Source: Roseococcus pinisoli (GTDB lineage Bacteria; Pseudomonadota; Alphaproteobacteria; Acetobacterales; Acetobacteraceae). Taken from it: a stretch of 64,000 nucleotides of DNA. The stretch is from positions 930,001 through 994,000 of the forward strand of contig NZ_JAHCDA010000001.1 in assembly GCF_018413645.1 (NCBI RefSeq), written 5' to 3'. This document shows, in pieces, positions 4,104-59,620 of this stretch. The translations under genes were made by a program, and so were the position numbers. Position 1 is the stretch's first letter; the number at the start of each line of letters is the position of its first letter. Under the pieces are notes generated by a model that was not told the origin of the DNA, ran no database searches, and saw only the letters and a list, made by a program, of their open reading frames with translations.

Positions 4104-4952
4104 TCAGCCCTTGGCCGTGAGCAGCTGGACGATCCCGTCGAGCTGATCGAGATCCTTGTAGGACAGCACCACCTGCCCGCCGCGCGTGCCGTGGCGGATG
4201 GCGACCTTGAGGCCGAGATGGCCGCTGATCTGGCGCTCCAGCGCGCGGGTCTCGGCATCGCTCTTCGGTCGGCGCGGCGCCGGCCCACCCTTCTTCGACG
4301 CCGCCAGCGCTTCCGCCTGGCGGACGTTCAGACCGCGATCCACCACCGTCAGCGCCAGGGCCACCGGGTCCGTCGCCGTCAGCAGGGCACGTGCATGGCC
4401 CGCCGTTAGCGCGCCTTCACGCAGCAGCTCACGCACGCGCTCGGGCAGCTGCAGCAGGCGCAGCGTATTGGCGATATGCGGCCGGCTCTTGCCGATGGCG
4501 CGGGCCAGGGCTTCCTGCGTGAGGCCGAACTGCTCGGTGAGGCGGCCATAGCCTTCGGCCTCTTCCAGCGCATTGAGGTCCTGCCGCTGGAGGTTCTCGA
4601 CGAGGCCCGCGGCCATCGCCTCGCGGTCGGAGAATTCGCGCACCAGGGCCGGCACGTCATGCAGGCCGGCAGCTTGCGCGGCACGCCAGCGCCGCTCGCC
4701 GCCGATGATCTCGAAGCGGTCGGGCCGCCCCTTCATCGGACGCACGAGAATGGGCTGCAGCACCCCGTGCTCCCGCACCGAAGCGGCAAGCTCGGCCAGC
4801 GCCGCCTCGTCGAAGGCCTCGCGGGGCTGGAAGGGGCCGGCCTCCAGCGCGCCGACGGGCAGGGTGCGCAGCCCCGGCGCCGTCGGACTGACCGCGGCAG
4901 CGTCGCCCAGCAGGGCCGAGAGGCCGCGACCGAGGGCAGGGGGCTTGCTCAT
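4104..4952 (-). CDS. parB: Chromosome partitioning protein ParB (CTPase, parS-binding)
   Basis: The 282-residue product has the N-terminal 'ALGRGLSALLGD' signature of chromosomal ParB/Spo0J. It also has the CTP-binding boxes (GGERRWRAA near residue 85; VENLQRQDLNALEEA near 118), a helix-turn-helix region (LTQEALARAIGKSRPHIANTL) for parS recognition, and a C-terminal dimerisation segment. ParB loads at parS, slides as a CTP-dependent clamp and organises the origin region for segregation by ParA. The ATG at 4952 overlaps the parA stop as ATGA. Two consensus parS sites lie 1.4 kb upstream in the same operon. Length and order are typical of alphaproteobacteria. Confidence 0.97.
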   Translation of the reverse strand: MSKPPALGRGLSALLGDAAAVSPTAPGLRTLPVGALEAGPFQPREAFDEAALAELAASVREHGVLQPILVRPMKGRPDRFEIIGGERRWRAAQAAGLHDVPALVREFSDREAMAAGLVENLQRQDLNALEEAEGYGRLTEQFGLTQEALARAIGKSRPHIANTLRLLQLPERVRELLREGALTAGHARALLTATDPVALALTVVDRGLNVRQAEALAASKKGGPAPRRPKSDAETRALERQISGHLGLKVAIRHGTRGGQVVLSYKDLDQLDGIVQLLTAKG

Positions 4953-5776
4953 GCGTCGCGGCCTTCCGCCTTGGCGAGCTCACGGCGGCGCGCCCGGTGC
5001 CGGCGCAGGAACTCCGCCGCCAGGCGCGCATAGGCCTCGGCGCCCGGCGAGCGCGGATCGTAGGAGGTCACGGGCAGGCCGTGCGACGGCGCTTCCGAGA
5101 CGCGCACGTTGCGCGGGATCATCGTCTCGTAGACCTGCGTCTTGAAATAGGCGCGGACGTCGTTCTCCACCGCCTCGGAGAGGTTGTTCCGGCGATCGAA
5201 CATGGTCAGCACGATGCCCTCCAGCCGCAGCCCGGCATTGTGGCCGGCCCTTACGCGATCGAGCGTCTGGATGATCTGCGACACGCCTTCCAGCGCGTAG
5301 AACTCGGCCTGCAGCGGGATCATCACCGCATTGGCGGCCACGAGGCCGTTCAGCGTCAGCAGGCTGAGCGAGGGCGGGCAATCGAGAATGACCCAATCCA
5401 CGCCCTTCAGCGCCGTCACGCCCTCGGCCAGCGCGTCGCGCAGCCGCATCTCGCGTCGCGTGAGGTCCACCATCTCCAGCTCACCGCCGGCGAGGTTGGG
5501 GTCGGCAGGAACGATCGAGAGGTTGGGGATGGCGGTCGGCCGCAGCACCTCCGCCAAGGGTCGCCCCTCGACGAGCATGGCGTAGCTCCCCGCGCCGCGG
5601 GCGGCACGCGAGATGCCGAGACCCGTGGAGGCATTGCCCTGCGGATCGAGGTCGATGAGCACCACGCGCTGTTTCGCAGCGAGTGCGGCGGCCAGGTTCA
5701 CGGCCGTTGTCGTCTTGCCGACGCCGCCCTTCTGGTTGGCGAGAGCAAGGACTTGGTAGGTGGCGGGGTCAGGCAC
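4949..5776 (-). CDS. parA: Chromosome partitioning ATPase ParA (Soj)
   Basis: This is a deviant Walker A ATPase with KGGVGKTT at residues 16-23, including the signature Lys16, near the N-terminus, and 'DLDPQGNASTGLG' after it. The Walker B region is 'WVILDCPPSLSLLTLNGL'. ATP-dependent nucleoid binding by ParA moves ParB-parS complexes. I chose the GTG at 5776 (275 residues), which overlaps the rsmG stop in GTGCCTGA. A TTG 69 bases upstream would add 23 residues unlike the family and overlap rsmG by 77 bases. No strong ribosome-binding site precedes either start, so coupling to rsmG translation is plausible. ParB follows with an ATGA overlap. Confidence 0.96.
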   Translation of the reverse strand: MPDPATYQVLALANQKGGVGKTTTAVNLAAALAAKQRVVLIDLDPQGNASTGLGISRAARGAGSYAMLVEGRPLAEVLRPTAIPNLSIVPADPNLAGGELEMVDLTRREMRLRDALAEGVTALKGVDWVILDCPPSLSLLTLNGLVAANAVMIPLQAEFYALEGVSQIIQTLDRVRAGHNAGLRLEGIVLTMFDRRNNLSEAVENDVRAYFKTQVYETMIPRNVRVSEAPSHGLPVTSYDPRSPGAEAYARLAAEFLRRHRARRRELAKAEGRDA

Positions 5777-6383
5777 CGGCAGGACGGATCTCGCTAAGGC
5801 GGAGGATGGTCGCTTGGTCGTCGGTTCGGCTCTGGAACCGTTCAACCTGCATAAACCAATGCGGGGCGACCTCCGTCAACTCCGCATCGACGGAACGCCC
5901 CTTCGGAAAGACCGCAATACCATCGGGAGCCAGGAACCGCGCGGCCTGCGGCACCAGAAGTTTCAGCGGCGCGAGCGCCCGCGCGGTGACGACCTGGATC
6001 GCCGGCAGCCTCGCCGCCTCGATTCGGGCGGGATGCACGGTGACGTGGCGCAGCCCGAGCGCCCGGCTTGCCTCGATCAGGAAGGCCGACTTCCGGCGGT
6101 CGGATTCCACCAGATGGGTTTCCTGCTCGCGCCCGATCGCGATGACGATGCCGGGCAGGCCGCCGCCCGAGCCGAGATCGGCGAGAACGCCATCCGGCAG
6201 CAGCGGCAGGAGCTGCCATGAATCCAGGATATGGCGCCGCCAGAGCTGCTCCTCCGGCGCCTGCGCCACGAGGTTGATGCGGGCATTCCACGACTGCAGG
6301 AGAGCGAGATAGGCCCGCAGCCGCGCCTCTGTTTCACGTGGAACATCCAGAGTTCCGGCCTCAGGCAGTTTCACGTGAAACAC
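5769..6383 (-). CDS. rsmG: 16S rRNA (guanine-527 N7)-methyltransferase RsmG (GidB)
   Basis: The 204-residue product has the SAM-binding glycine motif [17 protein letters not shown] near residue 68 and the family block '[14 protein letters not shown]' near the N-terminus. RsmG methylates G527 of 16S rRNA, and loss gives low-level streptomycin resistance in other species. The start is a GTG at 6383, overlapping the 3' end of mnmG by 23 bases; the initiation region is itself a parS site, so bound ParB could affect its expression. A second parS lies in codons 13-18. An ATG at 6346 is in a different frame and is not the start. Confidence 0.94.
6330..6345. promoter_or_regulatory. parS: parS centromere site 1 (inside rsmG)
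   Basis: The 16-mer TGTTTCACGTGGAACA matches the bacterial parS consensus (TGTTNCACGTGAAACA) at all but one position and keeps the CACGTG core and both arms. It is 37 bp from a second site and about 1.4 kb from parB, whose product binds this sequence. Confidence 0.93.
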
Positions 6384-41353: not shown

Positions 41354-42625
41354 TCAGACCGCCAAGCTTGTCATGGCCGGCGCCGCCGCGTAACCCGGGG
41401 GCGCCTGCTCCGCCCGCAGCATGTAGTCGCGATTGAGGGGCAGGGCATCGACGGTGCGGGTCAGCTGGAGCTGCCAGTTCATGTGTCCGCCATGGCGGAA
41501 GGCGCTTTCCGAACCCGCCAGATAGAATTCGAACATGCGGCAGAAGCGCTCGTCGTGGCGGGCGCGGATCTCCTCGCGATGGGCGGCGAAGCGGCGGCTC
41601 CATTCGCGCAGCGTCAGCGCATAATGCAGCCGCAGGATCTCCATGTCGGTGATCCAGAGCCCGGCCTTCTCCACCGCCGGCACCACCTCCGACACCGCGG
41701 GCGAATAGCCGCCCGGGAAGATGTAGCGGTTGATCCAGGGATTGGTGGCGCCCGGCCCCGTGGAGCGGCCGATGCCATGCACCAGCGCCACGCCATCCTC
41801 GCGCAGTGCGCGCGCGACGGCGCCGAAATAGGTGCCGTAGTGGTTGATGCCGACATGCTCCACCATGCCGACCGAGACCACCCGGTCCATCGGCCGGTCC
41901 CAGGCGCGGTAGTCCAGCAATTCGAAGCGCACCTGGTCGGCGAGGCCCGCGGCCTCCGCCCGGGCGCGGGCGATGGCCAGCTGCTCGCGCGAGAGGGTGA
42001 TGCCCGTCACCCGCGCGCCGTATTCGCGCGCGAGCGTCAGGGCCATGCCGCCCCAGCCGCAGCCGATGTCCAGGACCTCGAGGCCCGGCCGGTCCAGTTT
42101 CAGCTTGGCAGCGATATGCCGCTTCTTGGCGAGCTGGGCTTCCTCCAGCGTCTCCGTTCCCGTGGGGAAATAGGCGCAGGAGTATTGCCGGTCCTCGTCG
42201 AGGAAGAGGCCATAGACGGCCTCGTCGATGTCGTAGTGGTAGGAGATGCGGCGGCGCGCGAGGCCCGCGGGGTTGAGCTGGCGCAGGCGGCGCACGGCCC
42301 AGCGGCCCCAGTTCAGGATCCAGGAAAAGCCAGGGTCGCCGCTGAGGGTCTGGTTGAGGCTCAGCACGTCCAGCATGTCGTGCAGCGAGCCCGCGATCGG
42401 CTCGATCTCGCCCTCCATGTAGAGTTCGCCGAGGGCCAGGCTCGGATTGAGCATCATGCGGCGGACGGCATGTTCGGTCTTCAGATGCAGGCCGCCGGAA
42501 GGTTCGCCGCCGGGGCCGAGCATGGCCTCGCGGCCATCAGGAAAACGTACGAGAAGCGCGCCCCGTTGGACGAAGCGGCGCAACATGAGTTGCAGCACCC
42601 TGTCTCTCCCAACTTTCCAGGGCAT
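41354..42625 (-). CDS. cfa: Cyclopropane-fatty-acyl-phospholipid synthase
   Basis: The 423-residue product has an N-terminal lipid-binding region ('ALGELYMEGEIEPIAGSLHDMLDVL'), 'ISYHYDIDEAVYGLFLDEDRQYSCAYFPTGTETLEEAQ', the SAM motif 'VLDIGCGWGGMALTLARE' and 'RVVSVGMVEHVGINHYGTYF'. It adds a methylene bridge to unsaturated acyl chains of membrane lipids, often under stress. The ATG at 42625 fits. It is preceded by a long 689-bp region without a gene. No regulator is obvious. Confidence 0.94.
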   Translation of the reverse strand: MPWKVGRDRVLQLMLRRFVQRGALLVRFPDGREAMLGPGGEPSGGLHLKTEHAVRRMMLNPSLALGELYMEGEIEPIAGSLHDMLDVLSLNQTLSGDPGFSWILNWGRWAVRRLRQLNPAGLARRRISYHYDIDEAVYGLFLDEDRQYSCAYFPTGTETLEEAQLAKKRHIAAKLKLDRPGLEVLDIGCGWGGMALTLAREYGARVTGITLSREQLAIARARAEAAGLADQVRFELLDYRAWDRPMDRVVSVGMVEHVGINHYGTYFGAVARALREDGVALVHGIGRSTGPGATNPWINRYIFPGGYSPAVSEVVPAVEKAGLWITDMEILRLHYALTLREWSRRFAAHREEIRARHDERFCRMFEFYLAGSESAFRHGGHMNWQLQLTRTVDALPLNRDYMLRAEQAPPGYAAAPAMTSLAV

Positions 42626-43102
42626 GATGTTACACAGAAGCGGGCAGGGCTTCGCAAGTCGTCCTTGGGGGCTGGCGAGGGAATGCGCGACGCGCGGACG
42701 GGAATTCGTCTCTTTTTCACAAAATAGTGAGGGAATGGAAAAGCGCTCTCCATTTCCGGCCTTTCCGGCACGAGGGTTCGTGCGGGCATCGGCGGTCTTG
42801 GCAAGGCCGGCCTCTTCTTGTCGGCATTCGCACGCTGCCCATCGGACGGAGGCGCTGTCTCACCATCTGATGTCGGGCCCCTGAAGAAATTGAACATGGA
42901 CGGTGTCGGCCGAGCGCTGCTCTACTTCGCAACATGCTGCGCATGCCCAATTCCCGCCGGGACAGTGCCGGACCCGAGGCCTGGCGGGCAGGGCGATACG
43001 CGCTCCAGCCGGCAGCGCGAAACGCACCTTCGTGCGATTTCACATCGTTGATCCCTGCCTGGGATCGGCACCCTCACGCTACAAGCGGCGAGAGGGAATC
43101 AC

Positions 43103-43117
43103 TCACACAATATGTGA
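43103..43117. promoter_or_regulatory. Dyad TCACA-N5-TGTGA upstream of peptide transporter operon
   Basis: TCACACAATATGTGA is a perfect 5+5+5 inverted repeat; its arms resemble CRP/FNR-type half-sites. It lies about 210 bp upstream of the binding-protein ATG, in an AT-rich patch. Confidence 0.45.
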
Positions 43118-43135
43118 TATGCGGGAATATACATT

Positions 43136-43149
43136 GACCCTCCAGGGTC
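43136..43149. promoter_or_regulatory. Dyad GACCCT-CC-AGGGTC upstream of peptide transporter operon
   Basis: This 14-bp near-palindrome with 6-bp arms overlaps a TTGACC that could be the -35 element, a position suited to repression. It lies 19 bp after the TCACA dyad. Confidence 0.45.
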
Positions 43150-43314
43150 GAGGACTAAGTTCCGCCTCCGATGCCCGACCAGGGCCGTCGCGGCAGGAAG
43201 CGGGGCGATCACGTGACGTCGCGTGAATTGCGCCCCGAGGCGCTGCCGAACCCGCACTCCGAAACGCCCGCCGAGCCGCCACCGCCCATCAGCCCGCCCA
43301 AGGAATTCACGGCC

Positions 43315-44922
43315 ATGCCCTTCGCCTCCGATGCCGCGCGCTTCGCCCTTTCCCGCCGCCAGGCGCTGATGGGCGCCTCGGCCCTCGTCCTGGCGCCCCG
43401 CGCGCTTCGGGCGGAGCCGCGGCGCGGCGGCACGCTGACCATCGTGCTCTCCAGCGAGCCGACCTCGCTCGTCGCTGCCACCACCGTCGTCACGCCCTCG
43501 CTCAGCGTCTCCGGCAAGGTGACGGAGGGGCTGCTGCAATACGACTTCGACCTCAACCCGCAGCCCGAGCTCGCCACCGAATGGTCCGTCTCGGCCGATG
43601 GCCTGCACTACGTCTTCAAGCTCCGCCCCGGCGTGAAGTGGCATGACGGTCGGGACTTCACCTCGGCCGACGTCGCCTTCTCGCTGCTGCTGCTGAAGCA
43701 GGTGCATCCGCGCGGCCGCAGCACCTTCGCCAACCTGGCCGAGGTCGCGACGCCTGACCCGCTGACCGCCGAGCTGCGGCTCAGCCGGCCCGCGCCCTAT
43801 CTCATCAAGGCGCTGGCGAGCTCCGAGACGCCGATCCTGCCCAAGCACATCTACGAGGGCACGGACGCCGCCGCCAATCCGAACAACGCGGCGCCCATCG
43901 GCACCGGGCCCTTCCTCTTCAAGGAATGGGCGCGCGGCAGCCACGTGATCTACGAGCGCAATCCGAACTACTGGGATTCCGCCAAGCCCTATCTCGACCG
44001 CCTCGTCGTCCGCTTCATCCCCGATCCGGCCGCGCGCTCGGCCGCCTTCGAGACCGGTCAGGCCGACCTCGGCTACCGCACGCCCGTCGCCATGGCGGAT
44101 GTGGAGCGGCTGCGCCGCGTGGCCGACCTGCGCTTCGAGACGAAGGGCAACAGCTATTCCTTCAACGTCACCAAGCTCGAGTTCAACCTGGACAACGAGT
44201 ATTTCCGCAATCCCAAGGTGCGGCAGGCCATCGCTCATACCATCGACCGGGCGCAGATCGCGCGCATCGCCTTCTTCGGCAATGCCGAGCCCTGCGCCTC
44301 GCCGATCGCCCCGGGCCTGCGCGCCTTCCACGACCCGGCGCCCTCGCCCTACGGCTACGATCTGGCCCAGGCGGAAAAGCTGCTGGACGAGGCGGGCTTC
44401 CGCCGCGGCGCCAACCGCATCCGCTTCCGCGTGCCGCTCGACTTCAACCCCGTGCTCGACGAAGGCCGCCGCGTGGCGGACATCGTGCGCGCGACGCTGG
44501 GGCGCATTGGCATCGCCGTGGATGTGCGCGCGCAGGACACGGGCAGCTTCGTCCGCCGCGTCTACACCGAGCGCGACTTCGCCTTCACGGTGAACGGGCT
44601 GAGCAACCTCTTCGATCCCACGGTCGGCGTGCAGCGTACCTACTGGTCGAAGAACTTCATCCGCGGCGTGCCCTTCTCCAACTGCACGAATTATTCGAAC
44701 CCCGAGGTGGACCGGCTGCTGGAGACGGCGGCGGTGGAGAACGACGCCGCCCGCCGCGCCGAGCTGTTCCGCGAGTTCCAGCGCATCGTCGCGGTCGAGG
44801 TGCCGGACATCAACATCTGCTCGCCCACCTTCCTCACCATCTACAACAAGCGGGCGCATGGCCATTCGCTGACGGCGAACGGCATCGAGGCCAGCCTCGC
44901 GGACGCCTATGTGGACGCCTGA
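43315..44922 (+). CDS. ABC peptide/nickel-type substrate-binding protein (DppA-like)
   Basis: The 535-residue SBP_bac_5 protein has a twin-arginine-like signal 'FALSRRQALMGASALVLAPR' and the family blocks 'GKVTEGLLQYDFDLNPQPELATEWSVSADGLHYVFKLRPGVKWHDG' and 'PIGTGPFLFKEWARGSHVIYERNPNYW'. It binds peptides or other small ligands in the periplasm and delivers them to the two permeases that follow. I chose the ATG at 43315 because it precedes the signal; a frame open from 43171 is not protein-like. The downstream permease starts immediately after its stop. No ATPase gene follows. Confidence 0.93.
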   Translation: MPFASDAARFALSRRQALMGASALVLAPRALRAEPRRGGTLTIVLSSEPTSLVAATTVVTPSLSVSGKVTEGLLQYDFDLNPQPELATEWSVSADGLHYVFKLRPGVKWHDGRDFTSADVAFSLLLLKQVHPRGRSTFANLAEVATPDPLTAELRLSRPAPYLIKALASSETPILPKHIYEGTDAAANPNNAAPIGTGPFLFKEWARGSHVIYERNPNYWDSAKPYLDRLVVRFIPDPAARSAAFETGQADLGYRTPVAMADVERLRRVADLRFETKGNSYSFNVTKLEFNLDNEYFRNPKVRQAIAHTIDRAQIARIAFFGNAEPCASPIAPGLRAFHDPAPSPYGYDLAQAEKLLDEAGFRRGANRIRFRVPLDFNPVLDEGRRVADIVRATLGRIGIAVDVRAQDTGSFVRRVYTERDFAFTVNGLSNLFDPTVGVQRTYWSKNFIRGVPFSNCTNYSNPEVDRLLETAAVENDAARRAELFREFQRIVAVEVPDINICSPTFLTIYNKRAHGHSLTANGIEASLADAYVDA

Positions 44923-55617: not shown

Positions 55618-56655
55618 TCACGCCGTCCGGAGCAGCCTCATCAAGGCCGATACATGTTCGGGCGGGGTCGGCTGCTCCACGCCATGGCCCAGGTTGAAGA
55701 TGAAGGGCCGCCCCTTCATGGCCGCCAGGATGCCCTGAGCTTCGCGCTGGAGGGCCTCACCCCCCGCCAGCAGGGCCTCCGGGTCCAGGTTGCCCTGAAG
55801 GGCCAGGGAGGCCGGGATATGGGCCGCAGCCCATACTGGATCCATGGCCGTATCCATCGCGACGGCCTGGACCCCCGTGGAGGCCGCGTATTCGACCAGC
55901 ATGGGGCCGGCGAGGCGGGGGAAGCCAATGACCGGAATGTCCGGCCGGGCCGCCTTCAGCGCCGCGCGGAGCCGCGCCGTGGGCTCGATCACCCATTTGC
56001 GGAAGGCCGAAGGGGGCAATTGGCCGGCCCAGCTGTCGAAGATCATCAGCACCTCGGCCCCCGCTTCGGCCTGGGCGAGCAGGTAGGCCAGCGTCGCCGC
56101 CTCCAGCTTCGCGAGGATTTCCCCGAAAAAGGCCGGATCCTGGTGCAGCAGCCGGCGGGCCTGCTTGAACTCGCCGCCGCCTTTGCCCTCGATCATGTAG
56201 CAGGCGACCGTCCAGAGCCCGCCCGAGAAGCCGATCAGCGTCGTCGTCGGGTGCTCGGCCTCCAGGGCCGCGCGCACGCGGCGCACCGTTTCCATGATGG
56301 GCGCGGCCTTGGCTGCCGCACCCGCGACGTCCAGCGCCTCGAGCCCCGCGCGGTCGCGGATGGGCGGCAGGCGGGGGCCCTCACCCTCCGCGAAGGTCAG
56401 GCCCTGACCCATCGCCCAGGGCACGATCAGGATGTCGGAGAACAAAATGGCCGCGTCGACGCCGTAACGCCGCACGGGCTGCAGCGTGACCTCGGCTGCG
56501 AGCTCAGGATTTAGGCACAGGCTCATGAAGTTGCCCGCCTGGGCGCGGGTTGCCCGGTATTCGGGCAGGTGACGACCGGCCTGGCGCATAAGCCAAGCGG
56601 GCGGGGGCCATACTCCCTCGCCGGAGAGGACCTTCAGAATGGGCTTCGCTGACAT
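55618..56655 (-). CDS. hemE: Uroporphyrinogen decarboxylase HemE
   Basis: The 345-residue product has 'PPPAWLMRQAGRHLPEYRATRAQAGNFMSL', 'AAILFSDILIVPWAMGQGLTFAEGEGP' and 'LIGFSGGLWTVACYMIEGKG', all hallmarks of HemE. It removes four carboxyl groups from uroporphyrinogen III. I chose the ATG at 56655; the frame is open to a TTG at 56739, but those 28 codons are encoded by the candidate oriC and look unstructured. hemH follows. A homopurine tract (56671-56694) lies 15 bp upstream. Confidence 0.95.
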   Translation of the reverse strand: MSAKPILKVLSGEGVWPPPAWLMRQAGRHLPEYRATRAQAGNFMSLCLNPELAAEVTLQPVRRYGVDAAILFSDILIVPWAMGQGLTFAEGEGPRLPPIRDRAGLEALDVAGAAAKAAPIMETVRRVRAALEAEHPTTTLIGFSGGLWTVACYMIEGKGGGEFKQARRLLHQDPAFFGEILAKLEAATLAYLLAQAEAGAEVLMIFDSWAGQLPPSAFRKWVIEPTARLRAALKAARPDIPVIGFPRLAGPMLVEYAASTGVQAVAMDTAMDPVWAAAHIPASLALQGNLDPEALLAGGEALQREAQGILAAMKGRPFIFNLGHGVEQPTPPEHVSALMRLLRTA

Positions 56656-56719
56656 GGCCGGGACCAAACCAGAGAAAAAGGAAAAGAAGAAGAGTCTGGG
56701 TGGTGGTGAAGGTAGGGCC

Positions 56720-56728
56720 TGTGGATAA
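56720..56728 (-). promoter_or_regulatory. DnaA box 1 (perfect)
   Basis: TGTGGATAA is the reverse complement of the consensus DnaA box TTATCCACA. It forms one arm of a 12-bp inverted repeat with the second box. Confidence 0.8.
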
Positions 56729-56751
56729 CGAGGACCCAATTCAGCGGGATT

Positions 56752-56760
56752 TTATCCACA
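56752..56760 (+). promoter_or_regulatory. DnaA box 2 (perfect)
   Basis: TTATCCACA matches the consensus exactly, 23 bp from box 1 and in opposite orientation. It is followed by GGC, which extends the inverted repeat to 12 bp. Confidence 0.8.
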
Positions 56761-56950
56761 GGCTTTTCCGCCGGATTGACTCGTTGCGAATCCCGCCGCG
56801 CGCTTCGCCGTCGTTAATCGATCCGGAATGCCGGAGACCTTGTCCTCGAATCATACAGGGGCGGGAAATTTGCGCCGGTTGTCCCCGCTGACACGCCCGC
56901 CATTGCCGCGACCCCCTTTCCATCCCCATCATCCCCACAACCCCACAAAG

Positions 56951-56959
56951 TGATCCACA
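56951..56959 (+). promoter_or_regulatory. DnaA box 3 (one mismatch)
   Basis: TGATCCACA has a single mismatch to TTATCCACA. It lies six bases before the start codon of the PPDK regulator, so a bound DnaA could also influence that gene. Confidence 0.55.
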
Positions 56960-56964
56960 GGCTT

Positions 56965-57855
56965 ATGTCCCCCCGGCCCACAACCAATCTCCACCTGGTC
57001 TCCGACAGCACGGGCGAGACGCTGAACAGCATCTCGCGCGCCGTCATCGCCCGTTTCGACAGCCCGGGGATCATCCAGCACCGGTGGTTCCTGGTCCGCT
57101 CGCGGATGAATCTCGACCGCGTGATCGAGGGGATCGAGCAGGAGCCAGGTCCCGTCATCTTCACCCTGGTGGACAGCAGCCTGCGCCTCGCGCTCGAGGA
57201 AACCTGCGCCCGCCTGGGCGTGGCCTGCCTCTCGGTCCTCGACGGCGTCACGGAGATCCTGCAGGCGGCGATCGGCACCCGGGCGCAGGAAAAGCGCGCC
57301 GCCCAGCATGTGATGGACGCCGACTACTTCCGCCGGATCGACGCCATGCACTACGTCCTCAGCCATGATGACGGGCAGGGCACGGCGGGCATCGCCAATG
57401 CGGACGTCGTGCTGGTCGGTGTTTCCCGCAGCAGCAAGACGCCGACCTGTTTCTACCTGGCCAACCGGGGGGTGAAGGCGGCGAACATCCCCTTCGTTCC
57501 GGGTGCGGCCACGCCGCCGGAGCTCGACAATCCGCCCTGCCCCGTCGTGGGCCTGACCATCGACCCGGCCGCGCTGATCGACATCCGCCGGCACCGGCTG
57601 CGCATCATCGGCGCCGACGGCATGCGCATGGGGGAGAGCCAATATGTGGACCCCGAGGCGGTGAAGAAGGAGATCCTCGCCGCCCGTCGCCTCTGCGCCG
57701 CGCGCGGATGGCCGGTCATCGACGTCACGCGCCGCTCCATCGAGGAGACGGCGGTGACGGTGATGCAGCAGGTCGACCTCTGGCACCTGAAGCACGCCAA
57801 GGCCTCGGTCGCGCCGGAGGATCCGGCGACCACCATCCTGGGCACCAAGCCGTGA
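56965..57855 (+). CDS. Pyruvate,phosphate dikinase/PEP synthase regulatory protein (DUF299)
   Basis: The 296-residue product has a P-loop-like GVSRSSKT near Gly152-Thr159 in '[33 protein letters not shown]', with the N-terminal '[24 protein letters not shown]' of this family. It is a bifunctional ADP-dependent kinase and phosphate-dependent phosphorylase acting on PPDK or PEP synthase. I chose the ATG at 56965; an in-frame GTG at 56950 overlaps a DnaA box. Its stop overlaps the GTG of maf. The family is the RP001-type origin neighbour in alphaproteobacteria. Confidence 0.95.
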
Positions 57856-59534: not shown

Positions 59535-59620
59535 GCGGGCGTGCCGGAATGGTAGACGGAAGGGACTTAAAATCCCTCGGCCGCAAGGCCGTGCGGGTTC
59601 GAGCCCCGCCGCCCGTACCA
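59535..59620 (+). tRNA. tRNA-Leu (anticodon TAA)
   Basis: The 86-nt gene includes the 3' CCA. The acceptor stem pairs GCGGGCG with CGCCCGT (one G-U), the anticodon stem AGGGA/TCCCT encloses a CTTAAAA loop with anticodon TAA reading UUA, a type II variable arm follows, and the T arm is GCGGG-TTCGAGC-CCCGC. It reads in the same direction as the Bug gene and the hydrolase and lies 30 bp after the former. Confidence 0.96.

Follow-up and report, generated by a model that had tools for sequence, protein, structure and literature searches.

The window analysed here is a stretch of 64,000 nucleotides (G000:C1:930001-994000) from an assembly of 4,789,249 bp in 12 contigs. Near its right end, 309 bp separate two divergent genes, hemE and a gene encoding a PPDK/PEP synthase regulator of the PF03618/COG1806 type. 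The original prediction had named this intergenic region as a candidate oriC, bounded by these two genes and holding two perfect DnaA boxes in a 12-bp inverted repeat, a third near-match box abutting the next gene, four GANTC sites and a 24-base homopurine tract. All of these elements were confirmed, the neighbours by matches above their cut-offs, the GANTC sites and the purine tract by motif search, and the inverted repeat at the coordinates predicted. The features are as follows:

55621..56655, minus strand: hemE, start at 56655 (TIGR01464, 359 bits, above cut-off)
56656..56964: hemE/PPDK-regulator intergenic region, 309 bp between divergent genes, the proposed chromosomal oriC
56666..56696: candidate DNA unwinding element, the third least stable 31-bp stretch of the window
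56671-56694: 24-nt purine run, inside the candidate DNA unwinding element
56692..56852: four GANTC sites (56692, 56778, 56788, 56848)
56698..56719, minus strand: GC spacer (GGCCC), then a three-base-periodic array, BUS-like with non-canonical trios, recognised by conservation and lag-3 identity in relatives
56717..56763: 12-bp inverted repeat formed by boxes 1 and 2, with arms GCCTGTGGATAA (56717-56728) and TTATCCACAGGC (56752-56763)
56720..56728, minus strand: DnaA box 1, exact match to TTATCCACA, facing hemE
56752..56760, plus strand: DnaA box 2, exact match to TTATCCACA, 32 bp from box 1
56880..56890, plus strand: TGTCCCCGCTG block, kept in near relatives in the alignment
56923..56937, plus strand: two TCCCCA hexamers (56923, 56932), like Caulobacter W-boxes (PMC4285127)
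56951..56959, plus strand: DnaA box 3, TGATCCACA, 5 bp before the ATG at 56965
56965..57855, plus strand: PPDK/PEP synthase regulator, ATG at 56965 (NF003742, 296 bits, above cut-off; PF03618)

The intergenic region has a G+C content of 58%, against 71% for the window (42% versus 29% A+T), and other stretches sampled on contig C1 lie between 66.5 and 72.6% G+C; its A+T content is above the genome level, as expected for origins of the hemE/COG1806 type. The purine run is the sole purine or pyrimidine run of at least 18 nt in the window, and the four GANTC sites within 309 bp are the window's densest GANTC cluster. A promoter/terminator scan of the region gave no matches, and near the region Rfam returned one sub-threshold microRNA match (E 0.25). 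In this genome the hemE reading frame (window 55618-56739) runs on upstream without a stop across DnaA box 1; a conserved N-terminal extension was ruled out by the frame shifts and stops that relatives show.

Both copies of TTATCCACA in the window lie in the hemE/regulator region, and there are eight genome-wide. The inverted pair (TGTGGATAA-N10-35-TTATCCACA) occurs at a single place in the genome. The shorter TNATCCACA has 67 genomic copies, and only at this region do three fall within 240 bp, an arrangement for which about 4e-4 occurrences would be expected if the 67 copies were placed at random. By the inverted-pair and TNATCCACA searches, DnaA boxes are clustered in the hemE/regulator region and nowhere else in the genome.

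Conservation was assessed with a scan for the regulator protein, from which the best 80 of 406 matches were taken; most are labelled as Acetobacteraceae genera and some only as Rhodospirillales or Alphaproteobacteria, and the nearest relative among those listed is Roseococcus sp. SYP-B2431. Among these best 80, hemE lies divergently upstream of the regulator in all 79 testable relatives (locus L068, with only 62 bp upstream, was left out of the hemE test), with a gap of 291-884 bp, and together with the window these give 80 intergenic regions. Two perfect boxes are found in the window alone (1/80 regions); one perfect box is present in 20 of the 79 relatives, and the perfect inverted pair in none. 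What relatives conserve is a single box facing hemE, together with a weaker second box at a preferred spacing, TCCCCA-type hexamers and a box by the next gene. The perfect inverted pair of the prediction is particular to this genome.

TNATCCACA is present in the regions of 53 of the 79 relatives (77 copies against 0.5 expected at the flank rate, 154-fold), TCCACA in 77 (31-fold over flanks) and TCCCCA in 57 (15.7-fold over flanks), the flanks being mostly coding, such that an intergenic effect may make up part of any enrichment. Across the 80 regions, window included, a hemE-facing box lies 40-140 bp from hemE in 71, a second, oppositely facing box 25-50 bp further on in 57, a tandem TCCCC element by the regulator in 50, TCCACA no more than 45 bp from that gene in 44 and T[AG]TCCCCGC in 13, with all five elements together in four regions. 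Box cores are spaced by 35, as for boxes 1 and 2, in 44 of the 79 relatives (0 in 100 shuffle rounds) and by 47 in 15. GANTC sites number 325 in the 79 relatives against 88.5 expected from composition, the top ratio of 16 such palindromes, and a CcrM-like methylase with a RAMA domain is encoded at C1:233718 (NF050803, 607 bits, under the 830-bit cut-off).

The window's least stable 100 bp begin at 56662, and in 74 of the 80 intergenic regions the centre of the weakest 31 bp is no more than 100 bp from the hemE start. The most fitting reading of the purine run is as a component of the unwinding end. The only 31-bp stretches of the window less stable than the candidate unwinding element are two at 42600-43200; they precede a long frame (43171-44922) whose product, judged by eye, resembles an ABC-type substrate-binding protein.

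A full CtrA site (TTAA-N7-TTAA) is absent from the window and was found in 1 of the 80 intergenic regions, and a PF00486 search for a CtrA gene returned 14 regulators, none of which was singled out as CtrA. Scored for exact matches, the window contains no copy of WATCARNNNNTTR, the IHF consensus. Origins at the hemE/COG1806 boundary are described for Caulobacter and Rickettsia (PMC1914354), a published precedent for the position to which the prediction had appealed; Cori of Caulobacter crescentus and the Rickettsia origins share with this region the same two boundary genes, DnaA boxes and an A+T content above that of the genome. In addition, TGATCCACA and TCCCCA are identical to the Caulobacter G-box and W-box, respectively, as given in PMC4285127. 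Unlike these origins, the Roseococcus region has its two perfect boxes, of the E. coli type, arranged as an inverted pair and is without the CtrA site and the exact IHF consensus; CtrA sites are not universal at origins of this type, being reported as absent in E. ruminantium (PMC1914354).

The same window holds a chromosome segregation locus, about 50 kb from the boxes:

4104..5845, minus strand: parB and parA, beside rsmG, mnmG and mnmE (parB, rsmG, mnmG and mnmE over curated cut-offs; parA below the cut-offs of its matches)
6330..6382: two parS-like sites (6330-6345, 6367-6382), at the rsmG/mnmG boundary beside parAB and 50 kb from the boxes

The five genes occupy 4.1-9.6 kb of the window, and the two parS-like sites are the sole matches in the genome with 0-1 mismatch; at two mismatches parS matched 3 places against 8 for a reversed control pattern, which makes weaker matches meaningless. 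With at most one mismatch, parS was found in all ten relatives tried and the control pattern in none, and in the three of those ten confirmed to have both on the same contig it lies 13, 25 and 46 kb from the hemE locus.

Over the 820 kb sampled from C1, in a 12-contig assembly that yields no closed circle, GC skew averages -0.0149 to the left of the locus (233 bins of 2 kb) and +0.0090 to its right (177 bins; Mann-Whitney P = 2e-8, bins taken as independent). The best change points form a broad optimum at 1.04-1.25 Mb, versus 0.987 Mb for the locus. The GC-skew check that accompanied the prediction had no clean outcome: the sign change lies nearby but is broad, and a second polarity marker switches 177 kb away. 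Third-codon GC skew was dropped as origin evidence because it is confounded by gene orientation.

That second marker is GGGNAGGG, an octamer used to indicate replichore polarity. In this genome octamer polarity switches at about C1:810 kb, to the left of the locus, and the locus is worse than 810 kb by 19 log-likelihood units with GGGNAGGG and by 33 with the AIMS set, whose octamers were listed from PMC3751514. At the sharp GGGNAGGG switch, a segment of about 15 kb (C1:807-822 kb; L117, L118) has the opposite orientation in the collinear relative G006; this inversion is consistent with so sharp a switch, but leaves the plus bias at 820-980 kb (32 plus, 10 minus) unaccounted for. The relative G001, a single 5.48-Mb contig sampled as 40 stretches of 20 kb, has its best-supported origin by GGGNAGGG polarity at 550-570 kb, an interval that includes the locus (567 kb); the reversed control octamer peaks at 570 kb too, weakly (3.8 versus 29.8 units). 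In the same genome the AIMS set prefers 490-500 kb over the locus by 3.0 units, and by GC skew the locus comes 52nd among 274 rotations, whole-circle skew being uninformative. G005 has only a weak GGGNAGGG switch (30/46, 39/34) and G006 none (left 42+/50-, right 8+/14-). We judge the octamer signal to be unreliable close to the origin.

The switch at 810 kb in the genome itself raises the alternative that the true origin lies elsewhere, near C1:810 kb or near dnaA, and that the boxes described here are merely an inherited DnaA-binding site; consistent with the latter location, the origin of one Acetobacter genome has been predicted near dnaA (PMC3751514). However, C1:810 kb was rejected as the origin because DnaA boxes are lacking there (800-829 kb is free of TNATCCACA, and C1:800001-820000 of TNNTCCACA), and long open frames cover the switch point; the polarity switch itself stands as an observation. 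The dnaA gene is at C1:32 kb, 955 kb from the hemE locus. A dnaA-proximal origin was likewise rejected, as the 3.5-kb dnaA locus holds neither T.ATCCACA nor TT.TCCACA, and GC skew and octamers keep the same sign in the stretches sampled on either side (1-20 kb and 60-80 kb), with AIMS octamers minus-biased at both (7/17 and 4/24, respectively). Moreover, parS lies 50 kb from the hemE locus, against 126 kb from C1:810 kb and about 900 kb from dnaA, and dnaA is reported to lack a conserved position near ori in the Rhodospirillales, parAB being close to ori in nearly all the genomes of that study apart from some Rhodospirillales (PMC8116508). An origin elsewhere is, in our assessment, very unlikely. 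We consider it most improbable that the region lacks origin function and serves instead as a DnaA-titration site or as a divergent promoter region through which DnaA regulates hemE and the PPDK regulator. It does lie between divergent genes, and DnaA acts as a transcription factor in Caulobacter, but the conserved weak duplex and box spacing and the linked parS argue against this explanation, as does the lack of any sigma-70-type promoter match in the region, such a scan being weak evidence in this group. The same gene pair also bounds the experimentally identified Caulobacter origin (PMC1914354).

Taken together, position, the unique box cluster and its conservation, the weak duplex, the linked parAB/parS and the GC-skew sign change agree, and the candidate oriC is accordingly upheld: the hemE/regulator region is very probably the chromosomal origin of this Roseococcus-like member of the Acetobacteraceae. 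In place and kind such an origin is ordinary, being of the hemE/COG1806 type (PMC1914354) at the usual site in its class. Roseococcus-like Acetobacteraceae, here with dnaA far off, thereby gain a defined 309-bp origin open to direct testing.

From box 1 toward hemE, the order of elements is a GC spacer, an array reading C-N-A on the box strand (3'-GNT-5' on the other strand) and then the weak duplex. When 71 regions were aligned on the hemE-facing box and read on the box strand, the TNATCCACA-like boxes were followed by G-G-C-C-C (75, 72, 82, 87 and 85%), then by T or A, by A (87%) and by C (63%), after which a three-base periodicity sets in. Lag-3 identity after the hemE-facing box is 0.41 against 0.31 when shuffled (z = 8.0, 66 non-redundant rows), the shuffle statistics in this analysis ignoring shared ancestry. 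A second cut of 72 distinct strings gave a lag-3 z of 9.0 after the hemE-facing box and 2.3 after the first regulator-facing box; random stretches in this cut gave a lag-3 z of -1.4, but a lag-1 excess (z 5.6).

Runs of at least two C-N-A units follow the hemE-facing box in 46 of 75 regions (6.2 by shuffle) and runs of at least three in 19 (0.4 by shuffle), counts that are descriptive because the pattern was derived from this Acetobacteraceae set. After the regulator-facing box the corresponding numbers are 5 and 1 of 74, and in random stretches 1 and 0 of 80. The window is itself a weak example of the array, because its best C-N-A run is only 2; its best NAN run is 1.

This arrangement resembles the basal unwinding system (BUS; PMC8287927, PMC10721633) in having a box, a GC-rich spacer, a three-base array leading away from the box and then a weak duplex. 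It differs in the array, which is C-N-A on the box strand (3'-GNT-5') rather than NAN. Under the published BUS rule, a spacer no longer than 16 bp is followed by a minimum of three NAN trios (PMC8287927); three NAN trios in a row are absent from the window's array, and the rule held in 7 of the 71 regions with a hemE-facing box (window included), rarer than the 19.0 given by shuffling. Allowing trios with a central A or C did no better, either in the relatives (14/75; 48.7 by shuffle) or in the set of other families described next (12/21; 14.3 by shuffle). Because the trio rule was tested and failed, the opening end is not classed as a BUS, and we think nonetheless that it would work like one. 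We found no publication describing a C-N-A array in alphaproteobacteria, the supplementary tables of PMC8287927, which may already list some of these origins, lying outside the search.

To extend the comparison across the class, 115 genomes were used, one per family and two for the family of this genome; the regulator was found in 69, and the best-scoring 30 of these 69 loci were taken. None of the 30 is from the same family, which makes them an independent check, though not a random draw. hemE is divergent upstream in 28 of these best 30, and 21 of the 28 have a hemE-facing box. Lag-3 z was 3.6 after the hemE-facing box, against 0.1 for 13 strings following the other box and -0.6 for 28 random stretches. 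At least two C-N-A units were present in 11 of 21 loci (1.5 by shuffle) and at least three in 5 (0.1 by shuffle), compared with 1 and 0 of 13 after the other box and 4 and 0 of 28 in random stretches, while three NAN trios in a row were found in 2 of 21 against 4.7 by shuffle. Where the box lies within 160 bp of hemE the array is present in 10 of 11 loci (the exception being L216), and where it lies farther in 1 of 10, the cut having been chosen afterwards.

The DnaA protein of this genome was aligned to B. subtilis DnaA (8BTG). It has Tyr at the position of Asn187, Ile at Ile190, Leu at Ile193, His at Asn196 and Lys at Arg202, with Glu at both Glu183 and Glu228. At the Asn187 position, 2z4r, presumably a T. 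maritima DnaA chain, has Asn, and 1l8q/3r8f (A. aeolicus) has Gln. A DnaA match was obtained in 112 of the 115 class genomes, and the best-scoring 30 of these 112 loci were taken, 26 of which could be anchored by motif; this set and the 30 regulator loci share only 9 genomes. Among the 26 read, position 187 is Tyr in 22, Phe in 2 and His in 2, position 202 is Lys in all 26, and position 228 is Glu in 25, with 1 unread. In B. subtilis DnaA, Asn187 and Glu183 contact the central adenine of the trio, and Arg202 and Glu228 its guanine; C can substitute for the central A, and central G or T slow opening (PMC10721633). According to the same paper, none of the trio-reading residues (Asn187, Ile190, Ile193, Arg202 and Glu228) is universally conserved. 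Tyr in place of Asn187 is a further difference between the arrangement described here and the BUS. The motif thus keeps the guanine and loses the central adenine, and DnaA retains a positive and an acidic residue where guanine would be contacted and changes one adenine contact, a correlation only.

These observations suggest, tentatively and with a likelihood that we would place close to even but short of it, that alphaproteobacterial hemE origins use a variant unwinding module, in which a hemE-facing box and a GC spacer are followed by 3'-GNT-5' trios that lack the central adenine and are read by a DnaA with an aromatic residue (Tyr or Phe) or His at the Asn187 equivalent and with the guanine-reading Lys202 and Glu228 kept. 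If so, the module would be the kind of deviant trio whose existence the BUS authors suspected (PMC8287927). Against this stands the possibility, which we take seriously and hold to be somewhat less than even, that the array within the origin is a conserved site of hemE, a promoter or another site for a protein, which is periodic by chance, and not an opening element. In the window its distance upstream of hemE is some 40-65 bp, and a DnaA of the B. subtilis type would be expected to open 3'-GNT-5' trios poorly, because in B. subtilis a central G or T slows strand separation and only C replaces the central A well (PMC10721633). However, the repeat is tied to the hemE-facing box and seldom follows the other box or occurs in random stretches. 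A coding origin of the periodicity was also rejected, because the box-to-hemE distance falls in all three frames (26, 24 and 21 regions) and 35 of 71 have an in-frame stop. Were the array an opening element, the proposed widespread unwinding mechanism would reach a class in which, on the sets tested, the published rule for the motif mostly does not hold, and the altered DNA motif would have its counterpart in an altered DnaA residue, the one reading that motif.

For the proposed oriC as a whole, we infer a sequence of events from these features. DnaA would bind the strong inverted box pair by hemE, helped by the weaker TCCCCA and TGATCCACA sites by the next gene. A DnaA filament might then grow from the hemE-facing box over the GC spacer into the three-base-periodic array and open the weak purine/pyrimidine duplex adjoining hemE. 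Newly copied origins would subsequently be captured via parS, about 50 kb away, and the GANTC sites may report methylation state, presumably through CcrM.

Elsewhere in the window, a tRNA-Leu (TAA) lies at 59535-59620; no other tRNA was found in the window, and in an Rfam scan of the window one tRNA alone reached the gathering threshold. Outside it, two similar stretches 1.2 kb apart at G000:C1:127266 and 128452 (L004), each with TTATCCACAGG followed by a shared GGGGATAGTTGGAAG, possibly represent a repeated gene or element.
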